From: a virus
Virus record (IMG/VR): IMGVR_UViG_3300020172_002480
Coordinates: 1-34,299 of that record
Reading direction: 5' to 3' (one strand)
Length of the DNA stretch: 34,299 nucleotides
The translations under genes were made by a program, and so were the position numbers. Below, piece by piece: positions 1 to 34,299 of this stretch (within the stretch, counting starts at the first letter, position 1; each line of letters opens with the position of its first letter). The notes under the pieces were generated by a model that saw only the letters and a list, made by a program, of their open reading frames with translations, was not told the DNA's origin and ran no database searches.

Positions 1-1554
1 AACAGTTGTTCCTTGAATTTCATCAGCAACGATATAAGCATTCTTGAATGTATTATGTGTAACTATAAAATTATTAGTTAAATAAAGGCTGTCATCAGCA
101 GCAACAGAAATACATTGACATTCTTCCATACCAACATCTATTACATCAGTGATAAATCTCAACGCAGGTGATGGATTAAATAGATCGCGTTTTCTGGACA
201 ACTTGAAAGGATTTATAATTGAGGGTAAAACAATATCTACAACATTTACATCATAATTATGCCCGAATCCACTCTTATGCATACCATTTTTTAATGTGTG
301 TTTTACTCTAATGTATGCAATACCACCCAAAGATTCAACAAGCCATTTTACATCTCCTGCCAATTTTTCTGAAACCGAATAGAATTGAACTCGTGTTTTA
401 CCTGATCTGTGATAAAAAATAGAGCCATCAGTATCCATCAAGCCTTGAAGAATTTCCAATCTAACATTTTCATCGTTCTGCATATAAACGTTTGGAATAT
501 GCTTATCAACTGCTGTTAACCCCCATAATCCTAAATCAATTAATATACGTTTCATTGTATTTTTATTCTGTCCATCATTTTTTGATAACGTATAATCATA
601 GCCCGTTTTACTGGATAAATTTTTAACAATTTTCATTGAATGTGATAAACGTTGTTCAATTAATTGAATCATTTCTGGGTCGGCAGTAGAAAACCCGATA
701 GATCCGCATGATATTGACCCATCTCCCAATAAACACCCTAAAATATATGGATTTAATGGTATATTTTTAGATTCAATCATCGCAGGTGATGACACTAGTG
801 GAATTTCATGGTTTTTGTGACCGTGTTTATTTTTCAATGTTTGTTGTATTTCAGATGTTGTTTTTGTTGAATAACCCATATTTTTAGTTCGCTGAGATTG
901 CGTTCTAGTATTCCATAAATGATTCTTAGAGCATCTAACAACTGACCCATCTGAAAAATGCACATCAGCAACTGGTATCATGCCTTGTGGAAAGACTGCG
1001 GTTATAGGAGTTGGTTGGCCATTAGAACCCAATACTAGATTACCTACTTTTAAATCCCCCATTTTTTGAGTACCAGTTGGAGTTGGTATCAAGGCGGTTA
1101 TCGGTTCGGCTCTGCCACGCATGTACGCTAGTGGGCTTATTTCGATAACACCTTCCTCTAAGTATTTTGTAATGTCTCTTTTTTGATAGTATTCTGAAAA
1201 GACATCAAAAATAGGTCTAGTCCAAGGTGCCATTTTTTCCTCTAATGTACCTGGTAAAAATCCTAAATCTTCGTCCACAGAAACGGCGGGTCTTGTCACA
1301 ACGATTTTTTCAATTTTGCCTTCTTGAAATAATTTAATTCCATTTTGGACTGCCAACATAGTTTTACCTGTACCAGCTGGACCAATAGCAAATACTATGC
1401 TGTTAGTTTCATCTTGTAATTTTCTTAGGTATTCTTTTTGGCTTTTATTTCTTGGGGATAGCGTAACTTGCTTACGCTTGGCTGGCATATATGGTTGAAA
1501 ATCTATTATGTTAACTTCTGATGTAAAACGTTTTTTCATTTGTTTTCTACTCAT
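1..1554 (-). CDS. phoH: PhoH-family ATPase with in-frame intein (3' end cut by window edge)
   Basis: PhoH-like P-loop ATPase, a family common in T4-like phages and bacteria, associated with RNA handling and stress but of uncertain phage role. My own translation of the minus strand gives 518 codons with no stop up to the window edge. Walker A GPAGTGKT is at residues 58-65, TRPAV at 87-91, and the family motif PLAYMRGR at 141-148. The reading frame then enters a 353-residue intein and returns to PhoH sequence (TFKNAYIVADE, the Walker B region) at residue 502. The ATG is preceded by AGGAGAT six bases upstream. The gene is divergent from the plus-strand genes that begin at 1711. It has its own late promoter and a 5' stem-loop. 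The C-terminal part of PhoH lies outside the window. Confidence 0.93.
   Translation of the reverse strand, partial: MSRKQMKKRFTSEVNIIDFQPYMPAKRKQVTLSPRNKSQKEYLRKLQDETNSIVFAIGPAGTGKTMLAVQNGIKLFQEGKIEKIVVTRPAVSVDEDLGFLPGTLEEKMAPWTRPIFDVFSEYYQKRDITKYLEEGVIEISPLAYMRGRAEPITALIPTPTGTQKMGDLKVGNLVLGSNGQPTPITAVFPQGMIPVADVHFSDGSVVRCSKNHLWNTRTQSQRTKNMGYSTKTTSEIQQTLKNKHGHKNHEIPLVSSPAMIESKNIPLNPYILGCLLGDGSISCGSIGFSTADPEMIQLIEQRLSHSMKIVKNLSSKTGYDYTLSKNDGQNKNTMKRILIDLGLWGLTAVDKHIPNVYMQNDENVRLEILQGLMDTDGSIFYHRSGKTRVQFYSVSEKLAGDVKWLVESLGGIAYIRVKHTLKNGMHKSGFGHNYDVNVVDIVLPSIINPFKLSRKRDLFNPSPALRFITDVIDVGMEECQCISVAADDSLYLTNNFIVTHNTFKNAYIVADEIQGTTV
52..1110 (-). mobile_element. Class 3-type intein with LAGLIDADG homing endonuclease, inside phoH
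   Basis: Protein-splicing element of 353 residues (A149 to N501 of the precursor), inserted between PhoH MRGR and TFKNAY. It starts with Ala (AEPITALIPTPTG) rather than Cys or Ser, so the normal first nucleophile is missing. It carries the three residues that define class 3 inteins: Trp two residues after the block B His (NHLW, W214), Cys at block F position 4 (CQCISV, C481) and Thr just before the C-terminal His-Asn (VTHN, T499). The +1 extein residue is Thr502. Two LAGLIDADG-type motifs (ILGCLLGDGSI near 271-281 and LQGLMDTDGSI near 369-379) show a homing endonuclease domain. Family knowledge: class 3 inteins start splicing from the block F Cys. The motif assignment is by eye and the splicing activity is inferred. 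Confidence 0.9.
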
Positions 1555-29719: not shown

Positions 29720-29760
29720 ATAATAACGATGATGTAGTCAATCCATTTCATCGTTATTAT
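29720..29760 (-). repeat. 13-bp inverted repeat at the 3' end of the HNH gene
   Basis: The arm at 29720-29732 is perfectly complementary to 29748-29760, with a 15-base loop that includes the HNH stop codon. It could protect the 3' end of the minus-strand mRNA or help terminate it; no T-run follows on that strand. Confidence 0.6.
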
Positions 29761-30454
29761 TTATAATTTCTTTTAACCTTGGTATGTTTTCTACTACATA
29801 TAATACATGACTACACATATTTGGTACTAATTTATCACGTTTTGATAAATTTTCATTTTTCCATAATGGTTGTAGATTAGAGTAATGATTTAATACAATT
29901 AGTTCATCAAGTGATGCGCCAAATGAAATAGGTATAATATGGTCAATATGCCACTCATTTCTGTTATCCCACGACATTCCTTCTTGAAATTTATTTTCGA
30001 TATAATTTACGAAAAATTCAAAACTACAATGTAATATTTTTTCTGAAGTAGAATTTTTATTATATCCTTGTAATGATCTATTAATCATACTTCTAATATT
30101 ATGTTTTAATCTATATAGCTTATCTTTAGATTTTCTTTCTTTTTCATATTCTTTTTTATATACTTTTATTTTTTGATTATTGATACTTATATATTTTTTA
30201 AGATATTGTGAACGCAATTTTTTATTATCTATTGAATATTCTTTAACTTTTTGCAATATATGTTCTTTATTTTCATCATAATACAGCGATCTAATATGTT
30301 TTATCTTTTCAGCATTTTCTAATCTGTATAACTTATCACAGATTTTACATCTAGCGCTGACTCCATATTTTCCATTTTTAGCCTTACTAAATTCACTAAT
30401 TGATTTTTCTTCTTTACATTTTGAACAGCATTTGGTATGATTGATAAATATCAT
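29738..30454 (-). CDS. Free-standing HNH homing endonuclease (between moxR and its VWA partner)
   Basis: Protein of 238 residues. An N-terminal zinc-ribbon-like module (C10-x2-C13, C36-x2-C39) is followed by a long basic helical region rich in Lys and Tyr. The HNH nuclease then follows: WHIDHIIPIS (H169, D171, H172), HYSNLQPLW (N193) and KNENLSK (N200-N202). Such genes cut a specific site in related phages lacking them and are copied in by repair. It lies on the minus strand between two plus-strand genes, with a late-type promoter, a 5' hairpin and an AGGAG site. No truncation is seen, so it is probably active. Confidence 0.9.
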   Translation of the reverse strand: MIFINHTKCCSKCKEEKSISEFSKAKNGKYGVSARCKICDKLYRLENAEKIKHIRSLYYDENKEHILQKVKEYSIDNKKLRSQYLKKYISINNQKIKVYKKEYEKERKSKDKLYRLKHNIRSMINRSLQGYNKNSTSEKILHCSFEFFVNYIENKFQEGMSWDNRNEWHIDHIIPISFGASLDELIVLNHYSNLQPLWKNENLSKRDKLVPNMCSHVLYVVENIPRLKEIINNNDEMD

Positions 30455-30585: not shown

Positions 30586-31791
30586 ATGTCAAACGATCCA
30601 GTTTTAACTAAGATTATTGATAACATCATTGTAGCTCGTGTTGGTTTATTATTACGCCATCCATTTTTCGGCAATCTCGCAACTCGCTTGATTATTAAAG
30701 AAGGTGGTGAATGGTGTAAAACCGCCGCTACAGAAGGTCGCCATATCTTTTTCAATAAAGAATTCTTTGCACCATTAACGGTAAAACAAATTGAATTCGT
30801 ATTAGCTCATGAAATTCTTCACAATGCATTTGATCATATGGGTCGTCGTGAAGGTCGTCATCCTAAACTATTCAACTATGCAGCAGATTATTGTGTAAAT
30901 GGTCAAATCGTCCGTGATAAAATCGGTGATCACAATATCCCAGGTATCAACATTCTTCATGATACCCAATATTACGGAATGGGTGCTGAAGAAATTTATG
31001 ACTTGTTAAAAGATAACAATGATGAAATGTTGGATAAATTAGGTGAATTACTTGACCAACACTTTGATTGGGAATCACAGCCAGATGATGGTGAAGATGG
31101 GAATGGTCGCCCTGTTTATACATCGGAAGAATTGCGTCAAATCCGTGATGAAGTACGTGAAGCAGTTATGGCGGCTGCACAAGCGGCTGGTGCGGGTAAT
31201 ACACCAGGTATGATCCAACGTATGATCAAGGAACTTACCGAGCCAAAAATGAATTGGCGGGAAATTTTACAACAACAAATCCAAAGCGTAATTAAAGATG
31301 ATTACACTTGGATGAGACCAAATAAAAAAGCATGGCATCTATCCGCAGTTTTACCAGGGCAGAGTCTACGTGATACTATTGATATTGTTGTTGCAATTGA
31401 TATGTCAGGGTCAATTGGTGATGATCAAGCTAGGGACTTTTTAAGTGAAATTAAAGGTATTATGCAACAATATCAAGATTTCAAAATTAAAGTATTCTGC
31501 TTTGATACTCGTGTATATAATGAAGCCGATTATGATGGTTATTCAATCGACGAGTTCGATAACTATCAACCAATGGGTGGTGGTGGAACGGATTTTATGT
31601 GTGTGTGGGATTATATGAAAGAACATGAAATCCAACCAAGCCGACTGTTATTTTTTACAGATATGTACCCGTGCGGGTCTTGGGGCGATGAATCATACTG
31701 CGAAACTATATTTATTGCACATGGTACTACGACAATTGAAGCCCCGTTCGGTATGACGTGTTATTACGAGTTCAGTAATCAAACTGCATGA
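30586..31791 (+). CDS. VWA-like/metallopeptidase protein, MoxR partner
   Basis: Protein of 401 residues. The N-terminal putative metallopeptidase domain has HEILH (HExxH, H75-H79) in FVLAHEILHNAFDH. An acidic linker follows (about 140-195). The C-terminal VWA-like domain has the metal-ion-dependent adhesion motif DMSGS (D272-S276) and a later GGGGTDF. This matches the DUF2201/VWA_2-type proteins that pair with MoxR ATPases. It has its own early promoter and an AGGAA site. Its 3' end overlaps the end of the minus-strand HNH gene by 13 bases. Whether it is a working protease in the phage is unknown. Confidence 0.9.
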   Translation: MSNDPVLTKIIDNIIVARVGLLLRHPFFGNLATRLIIKEGGEWCKTAATEGRHIFFNKEFFAPLTVKQIEFVLAHEILHNAFDHMGRREGRHPKLFNYAADYCVNGQIVRDKIGDHNIPGINILHDTQYYGMGAEEIYDLLKDNNDEMLDKLGELLDQHFDWESQPDDGEDGNGRPVYTSEELRQIRDEVREAVMAAAQAAGAGNTPGMIQRMIKELTEPKMNWREILQQQIQSVIKDDYTWMRPNKKAWHLSAVLPGQSLRDTIDIVVAIDMSGSIGDDQARDFLSEIKGIMQQYQDFKIKVFCFDTRVYNEADYDGYSIDEFDNYQPMGGGGTDFMCVWDYMKEHEIQPSRLLFFTDMYPCGSWGDESYCETIFIAHGTTTIEAPFGMTCYYEFSNQTA

Positions 31792-32552
31792 TTGTAATCG
31801 TCGTATAATTGTTCAATTGTTTTACCGGAGGTTTTAAACTTCCGGTAATTTTCAATAGCGCTAATTAATCGTAAATTCGATATATCCGATATAACATGTA
31901 TTGGAACGTCATTTAAAAATCCATCTGAAACACTATAAACGTGATCGATATGCCAATCTTTTCCGCGTTTATTTTCTGGGTCTAATGAATGTTTATATTG
32001 ATTATATTGAGTATTTAAATATTGTTGGCATCTACGTCTATACTGTTGTTTAGTCAATCCATTAATTGTAAACTCTTTATTTTTATAAAAGCGTGACCAA
32101 AATTCTTTTCGCTTTTGAGAAAGTTGTTGTTTAATTTCATCAATTTTTGAAACATTATCAACCCCATATTTATCAATAGAGTTTTGTTTCTTTTTATCTT
32201 TGACTGATTGTAATTGACTAGTATTTTCCACGCCAATCAATGATTTCATATCTAACATAGAACAACGTTGTGAACAATAAGTATGATAACATTTACCACG
32301 ATTATTATATGTTAAATGGTTATCACATACCTTACATTTTTGTCTATGTGTGATATTATTCGCGTAGCAATATAGTCTTTCAGTAAAACTTGATTTCACT
32401 AAAAATGTTGTTCTATCATAAATTTTGGAATGTAATTCTAGATGGTTATTTTTTATGTATTTCTCTCGATGAGCGTGATATACGTCATCAGCACCGATGG
32501 ATTGTAAAAAATCAAGAACTTTTTGAAATGAATAAATAGAATTACTGGACAT
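31779..32552 (-). CDS. Free-standing HNH homing endonuclease (after the VWA gene)
   Basis: Protein of 257 residues. Domains: a helical N-terminus; a Cys4 zinc-finger-like module (C73-C76, C93-C97); two repeats of the YGVxN type (LIGVENTSQLQSVKDK, DKYGVDNVSKIDEIK) also found in the large endonuclease at 26790; then the HNH nuclease (WHIDHVYSV with H201, D203, H204; ISNLRLIS with N226; ENYRK with N235). Convergent with the VWA gene, it overlaps it by 13 bases at the 3' ends, and its C-terminal codons contain the VWA terminator. It has a late-type promoter, a 5' hairpin and an AAGGAG site. Confidence 0.9.
   Translation of the reverse strand: MSSNSIYSFQKVLDFLQSIGADDVYHAHREKYIKNNHLELHSKIYDRTTFLVKSSFTERLYCYANNITHRQKCKVCDNHLTYNNRGKCYHTYCSQRCSMLDMKSLIGVENTSQLQSVKDKKKQNSIDKYGVDNVSKIDEIKQQLSQKRKEFWSRFYKNKEFTINGLTKQQYRRRCQQYLNTQYNQYKHSLDPENKRGKDWHIDHVYSVSDGFLNDVPIHVISDISNLRLISAIENYRKFKTSGKTIEQLYDDYNHAV
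31822..31852 (+). terminator. Terminator of the VWA gene, embedded in HNH coding sequence
   Basis: TTACCGGA (31822-31829) pairs with TCCGGTAA (31841-31848), extended inward by further pairs, followed by TTTT. The same bases encode the C-terminal part of the minus-strand HNH protein. Confidence 0.75.
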
Positions 32553-33244: not shown

Positions 33245-34299
33245 TGGCTGAATTAAAACACGTAGGCCGAGTAATCGCTACTGGTAAAAAATGCTTAATT
33301 GCTTATCGCACCTTACCAGGTGATGCATATAGTGCTTTAGTAGTTCCAACTGAAAATTTACCAGATAGTTATCACGATGCACTAATTAATCTTGTCGAAA
33401 GTAATGCTGGTCAAACTGCTCATGAATTTGCAGAAGCACTAGACCGCACTCAATTCCCGGATGGGAGCCGTATGCTGCCAGCATTACATGCTCAAGGCCG
33501 GTTGATCAAGATTCCAACAGATCAAGTTGAAGTAGTTCCGACCAATTCAACATCTATTGTTTTATCGGAACTTAATCAAATTATCGCTGATAGCCGTGGA
33601 ATTCCAGTAGATGAATTATCTATTAAACCAACTACTGGCGAAAACTCAGATGTTAAAGAAGTAGCTAAAGTTAAAGATTTAGGAGAGCCTTCAAATGTTG
33701 AAGATTTTACTAGAACAACATCAGCAAGTATCAATGATGTCGAGTTATCACAACCAGTAATTGATCCAATTTCTGATCCATCTGGTGCTGCTAAACATTA
33801 TCGTTCACAAGCAGATAAATTAGCAAAAGAAGCTGCTCAATTCAGAAGAATGGCTGAGGATTTAGAAATGGAATTAGCTCATTTAAAAGGTAAATTTGCT
33901 ATGTTACCTAATCAACCAGACCAAACTATGGATGAAAATGAAGGTACTACTGTAAAGATTCTTGATAGACAGGCAGACTTAGATCAAGCGTATTTTAATC
34001 TTGATGTAGACGGTAAAGAAATGAGTTTTACATATTGGGATTACGCTGAGGAATTTGATAACGCAACTTATGAAGAGGTTATGTATATGATTGAAAAACA
34101 ACTTATTAATACAGATAAGTACGGATTTCCTGTTGATCCACAATTAACTCCTGAACAAAAAGAAGAAATTGCCCAAGTTGTACTTAAAGACCTCCAAACA
34201 AATCCAGGTTGGAAATCACGTCTTAGTGGTTATGGTGATTTAGAAGAAAATAGAAATATGAATGTTATTGACAAAGCTAAAAAAGCACTTAAGGGTAAA
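33244..34299 (+). CDS. Conserved phage protein, C-terminus beyond the window
   Basis: An open frame of 352 codons from the ATG at 33244 to the window edge without a stop. The N-terminal ~110 residues (HVGRVIATGKKCLIAYRTLP, ALVVPTENLPDSYHDAL, MLPALHAQGRLIKIPTDQVE) resemble a conserved domain of T4-like cyanophage proteins with unknown function. A variable Ser/Asp-rich linker and a coiled-coil stretch (about 180-215) follow. A second domain contains FNLDVDGKEMSFTYWDYAEE. Translation is probably coupled to the previous gene by the TAATG overlap. The true end cannot be seen. Confidence 0.8.
   Translation, partial: MAELKHVGRVIATGKKCLIAYRTLPGDAYSALVVPTENLPDSYHDALINLVESNAGQTAHEFAEALDRTQFPDGSRMLPALHAQGRLIKIPTDQVEVVPTNSTSIVLSELNQIIADSRGIPVDELSIKPTTGENSDVKEVAKVKDLGEPSNVEDFTRTTSASINDVELSQPVIDPISDPSGAAKHYRSQADKLAKEAAQFRRMAEDLEMELAHLKGKFAMLPNQPDQTMDENEGTTVKILDRQADLDQAYFNLDVDGKEMSFTYWDYAEEFDNATYEEVMYMIEKQLINTDKYGFPVDPQLTPEQKEEIAQVVLKDLQTNPGWKSRLSGYGDLEENRNMNVIDKAKKALKGK

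Follow-up and report, generated by a model that had tools for sequence, protein, structure and literature searches.

A class 3 intein carrying a LAGLIDADG homing endonuclease very probably interrupts the phoH gene of a large tailed phage. The gene lies at one end of the window, by which we mean the whole 34,299-nucleotide stretch of DNA analysed (IMG/VR virus record IMGVR_UViG_3300020172_002480, positions 1 to 34,299). The anatomy of the insertion, its class signature, its exact junctions and its presence or absence among related phages can all be read from sequence. Elsewhere in the window lie genes for virion structural proteins, an endolysin, an ATP-dependent protease, a phage DNA polymerase, an exonuclease and several free-standing homing-type endonucleases, a content that fits a large tailed phage.

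The phoH gene and its insertion

The open reading frame at window positions 1-1554 (minus strand) codes for 518 aa and is open at the contig end. Its residues 32-149 match PhoH (PF02562, E 8.7e-43) and its residues 364-419 match LAGLIDADG_3 (E 7e-11); in a sequence search, residues 155-217 matched the class 3 intein MchDnaB1, whose structure is solved (6RIX, E 1.2e-8). The N-extein holds the Walker A motif GPAGTGKT (residues 58-65), and the conserved MRGR directly precedes the insertion. After the intein, PhoH sequence picks up again at TFKNAYIVADEIQ and runs for 17 codons, including the +1 residue, before the contig end cuts it. The intein itself is 353 open codons, with a G+C content of 34% versus 35% in the flanks. 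The features are as follows; fractions refer to the 117 class 3 inteins aligned.

1111..1554, minus strand: N-extein, PhoH residues 1-148 (PF02562 match, start codon, open reading frame)
52..1110, minus strand: class 3 intein, 353 aa, A149-N501, splicing domain plus LAGLIDADG endonuclease (boundaries from intein-free alleles, family alignments and AlphaFold2)
913..915, minus strand: Trp214, intein W66, block B:12 of the WCT triad (W in 115/117)
712..750, minus strand: LAGLIDADG motif 1, PYILGCLLGDGSI (PYILGCLLGDG), intein residues 121-133, with Asp130 (from sequence; D in 112/117)
421..462, minus strand: LAGLIDADG motif 2, RLEILQGLMDTDGS (LEILQGLMDTDG), intein residues 217-230, with Asp228 (PF14528; D in 117/117)
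112..114, minus strand: Cys481, intein C333, block F:4, predicted initiating nucleophile (C in 117/117)
58..60, minus strand: Thr499, intein T351, block G:5 of the WCT triad (T in 117/117)
52..57, minus strand: His500-Asn501, intein H352 and N353, C-terminal splice residues with the cyclising Asn (H and N in 117/117)
1..51, minus strand: start of the C-extein, +1 Thr502 and FKNAYIVADEIQGTTV, Walker B region (cut by the contig end)
26790-28334 (minus), 29738-30454 (minus), 30586-31791 (plus) and 31779-32552 (minus): free-standing HNH, homing and endonuclease VII-like cluster

Both splice junctions are fixed by relatives whose PhoH is the same but uninterrupted. Two of them, L003 and L010, read ...AYMRGR/TFKNAYIVADE... 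(here and below a slash marks the junction), with nothing between R148 and T502; AYMRGRTFKNAYIVADE is the reading in L003, L005 and L006, whose upstream block shows 81-87% DNA identity, and in L010 and L011 (77%). The intein is thus present or absent in frame at a single site, present in L002 (a second contig of the same virus) and absent from L003, L004, L005, L006, L008 and L010. A sequence-only reading had placed the insertion at A149-N501, window 1110 to 52, between the conserved RGR and the Walker B region of PhoH; the relatives lacking the insert show these boundaries to be exact and bear out the site.

Since the intein is located at the very end of the window contig, an assembly artefact that joined PhoH to a foreign intein had to be weighed. 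L002 (164.7 kb; 164,710 bases) holds the same arrangement complete, a 591-aa PhoH precursor with both exteins in frame, and is 100% identical to the window over the first 4,554 bases; the two allele-carrying contigs are 99.985% identical across 20 kb and 100% identical across the 13.9 kb that follow. Other phages show the same arrangement with different sequences. A chimera was rejected on the strength of L002, and we regard the probability of an assembly accident as negligible. Because the two carrier contigs are nearly identical, they amount to a single allele and offer no diverged counterpart for gauging selection on the intein. The last 434 bases of the window (33866-34299) are unmatched in the otherwise near-identical contig G304, and may be an insertion, a population variant or an assembly end.

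Class 3 signature

The class 3 signature was taken as published (PMC3196547, PMC5050341) and compared with alignments of the window intein and eight other phage inteins, then of 87 viral inteins, and finally of 117 class 3 inteins in total. Position 1 of the insertion, whose start is fixed by the intein-free alleles, is Ala149 and not Ser, Thr or Cys. The His at B:10 is H212, which is invariant (117/117); the terminal Asn (G:7) is N501 and the +1 residue is T502. The alignment therefore upholds the earlier assignment to class 3 in all its elements, namely Ala1, the W214/C481/T499 triad, the His-Asn pair and the +1 Thr. The two columns in which a different residue would have counted against it hold Cys at F:4 in every intein and Trp at B:12 in all but two. 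Those two, L108 and L137, have Phe in place of Trp and keep the remaining signature residues.

Among the 87 viral inteins, position 1 is A in 53, G in 7, S in 6, F in 5 and E in 5, with others making up the remainder; such variability is as expected if position 1 is not a nucleophile. C481 was identified as F:4 because the neighbouring Cys479 falls in a variable column (A, C, T or S), and C479 was rejected as a candidate for that position. A conserved C479-C481 redox switch was likewise rejected, Cys being present at -2 in only 25/117. Class 3 DnaB inteins of solved structure scored above the class 1 intein gp41-1 in both the sequence and the fold searches, which is suggestive only; the trees described below contained class 3 inteins only.

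Fold and endonuclease domain

AlphaFold2, run on an alignment of 20 family members, gave a model of the intein with a mean pLDDT of 92.3 and a pTM of 0.90. In a fold search of the PDB, the model matched the intein-endonuclease PI-SceI over its length (E 1e-18), its splicing domain matched the class 3 DnaB inteins 6RIX (MchDnaB1) and 6BS8 (Msm DnaB1), and its endonuclease part matched I-DmoI. An intein-plus-LAGLIDADG fold is thus predicted with confidence. The two LAGLIDADG motifs noticed earlier were recovered with both aspartates kept, in agreement with the matches to PF14528, PI-SceI and I-DmoI; the conservation of both Asp residues is partly owed to the search, as the viral comparison set was fished with LAGLIDADG motifs. 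Presence and absence at one site, together with an endonuclease domain that looks intact, indicate mobility, with present-day enzyme activity being putative.

Distribution of related inteins

Class 3 inteins had been described in the sequence-only reading as a small group. This is wrong: a tblastn search of 50,697 phage records matched the intein family in 769. The novelty of the window intein is accordingly smaller than first claimed, class 3 inteins being common in phages and already published from mycobacterial PhoH (PMC6195587); a PhoH intein of M. smegmatis is also mentioned in the literature (PMC7360933). Most of the phage class 3 inteins examined are located at Walker A (GK/T). In phage PhoH-family genes, inteins at this position were seen at L083/L012, L096, L116, L092, L098, L100 and L109, and some of these genes are fused to a PIN-like N-terminal domain. 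One open reading frame of 1393 aa (L138, at 2667) holds two class 3 inteins, at residues 112-456 and 803-1168.

Actinobacterial PhoH was reached via a C. glutamicum-type PhoH fragment from PDB 3B85. Class 3 inteins exactly at MRGR/T were found in the chromosomal PhoH of Mycobacterium sherrisii, Gordonia polyisoprenivorans and a Streptomyces, and the Gordonia intein was matched in 44 of 299 genomes of the order. By an automatic pattern, all of the best-scoring loci opened except L291 were PhoH with the MRGR/T junction. At least three other phage contigs also carry complete class 3 inteins at RGR/T, namely those of L263, L299 (located on the contig of L261) and L306, and the phage locus L303 has what may be the end of another. 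Ala1, the WCT triad and the His-Asn pair are present in 35/35 complete RGR/T inteins. Judged by its junction, the window intein is at the same PhoH site (MRGR/T) as the inteins of many actinobacteria.

Two observations were made in passing. The intein in the phoH gene of M. sherrisii (L203) is shortened, with 308 aa versus about 359, and has partly lost its endonuclease, which is apparently decaying. The contig shared by L299 and L261 (G308) has further intein- or endonuclease-like matches in open reading frames of 1468 and 1642 aa.

Descent of the inteins at RGR/T

Two histories could account for inteins at this junction. All phage and actinobacterial PhoH inteins at RGR/T may represent one old allele spread by homing at the site, a reading to which we give nearly an even chance. 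Alternatively, and with a probability somewhat short of even, the junction was entered repeatedly, the incoming inteins having come from the Walker A site (GK/T) of PhoH or of other ATPases. A single allele accords with the identical residue junction, with the signature residues common to all 35 complete inteins, and with BLASTP, in which the top-scoring relatives of the inteins in the window, L299 and L306 mostly came from RGR/T sites. Repeated entry accords with the likeness of the two sites, each a basic residue followed by a +1 Thr, and with the case of L306 and L109, whose PhoH proteins are 57% identical and carry related class 3 inteins at RGR/T and at Walker A, respectively.

The trees divide between these histories. 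In a 53-row tree the window intein stood beside L083, the Walker A intein of a PIN-PhoH gene (98/76), which speaks for repeated entry and suggested an independent arrival at RGR/T; that placement was reversed on adding L299, when a 38-row tree put the window inside the RGR/T group (90/99), as a single allele would predict. It changed again after L306 was added with other sampling: in the resulting 33-row tree the window was unplaced and L306 grouped with the Walker A inteins L109 and L130 (96/97), against a single allele. The splicing domain again set the window beside L083, whereas the endonuclease domain gave different neighbours. AU tests did not reject a single origin of the RGR/T inteins (p 0.163, 0.432 and 0.117), which leaves the one-allele reading standing and is not decisive against repeated entry. 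Because the topology shifts with sampling and the domains disagree, we claim neither history. That the switch from Walker A (GK/T) to RGR/T occurred more than once within phage PhoH, so that phages and actinobacterial chromosomes acquired an intein at this junction separately, is a tentative suggestion to which we give slightly better than one chance in three.

Proposed splicing and homing

Splicing, the inactivity of PhoH before splicing, and homing are inferred here from the family. If the intein follows the established class 3 pathway (PMC5222942, PMC6195587), Cys481 (F:4) would attack the R148-A149 peptide bond directly to give a thioester branch, the N-extein would pass to Thr502 (+1), Asn501 would cyclise to release the intein, and an acyl shift would yield intact PhoH of 238 residues. 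Unspliced PhoH would be expected to be inactive and to have no ATPase activity, because 353 residues would separate Walker A from Walker B. When relatives lacking the intein co-infect, the endonuclease would cleave their uninterrupted phoH site, into which repair would then copy the intein.

The intein might instead have kept its signature and lost splicing, the phage PhoH then being non-functional or the host PhoH being relied on. Phage phoH is an auxiliary gene whose loss could be tolerated, and a precedent for decay exists in the class 3 intein of Arthrobacter Arth_1007 (PMC3196547). That intein, however, is without Cys F:4 and His B:10, whereas here every catalytic position is intact, as is the C-extein in L002, and all 353 codons form an open frame. 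We consider decay improbable and prefer the reading of an intein that would splice and home.

In the window, an endonuclease-bearing phage intein occupies the site that is also used in the chromosomal phoH of actinobacteria, and sibling phages lacking the intein are available. The shared site and the siblings allow the origin in phages and the spread proposed for class 3 inteins to be tested; together with the Walker A inteins of PhoH, they are well suited to studying whether an intein can move from one site to another in the same gene.

Comparison with known systems

An intein in phage PhoH has been reported before, in Campylobacter phage IBB_35 (PMC3322345); no other earlier phage PhoH intein was found in the literature examined. 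The IBB_35 intein starts with Cys and interrupts the Walker B region (VDE/C...N/CQN), a different site from that of the window intein, and looks to be of class 1 type, so that it was rejected as a precedent. Mycobacteriophages carry class 3 inteins in TerL, RecB and other proteins, and both splicing and cleavage of intein-free alleles have been demonstrated for some of the TerL inteins (PMC5050341). Like the window intein these are phage class 3 inteins, but their host genes differ, and most of them interrupt the P-loop or lie close to it. The Msm and Mch DnaB1 inteins (6BS8, 6RIX) share the class 3 signature and the HINT fold with the window intein; unlike it, they are mini-inteins without an endonuclease and occupy a DnaB helicase site.

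Close counterparts exist in actinobacterial PhoH. Compared by published description, the mycobacterial class 3 inteins of M. fortuitum (OBK00716) and M. xenopi (EID13626) (PMC6195587, Fig. 6a) resemble the window intein in host family, class and WCT triad. The mycobacterial and other actinobacterial PhoH inteins found here have the identical MRGR/T junction and the Ala start. These actinobacterial phoH inteins are chromosomal, whereas that of the window is phage-borne and 35-40% identical to the actinobacterial ones tested.
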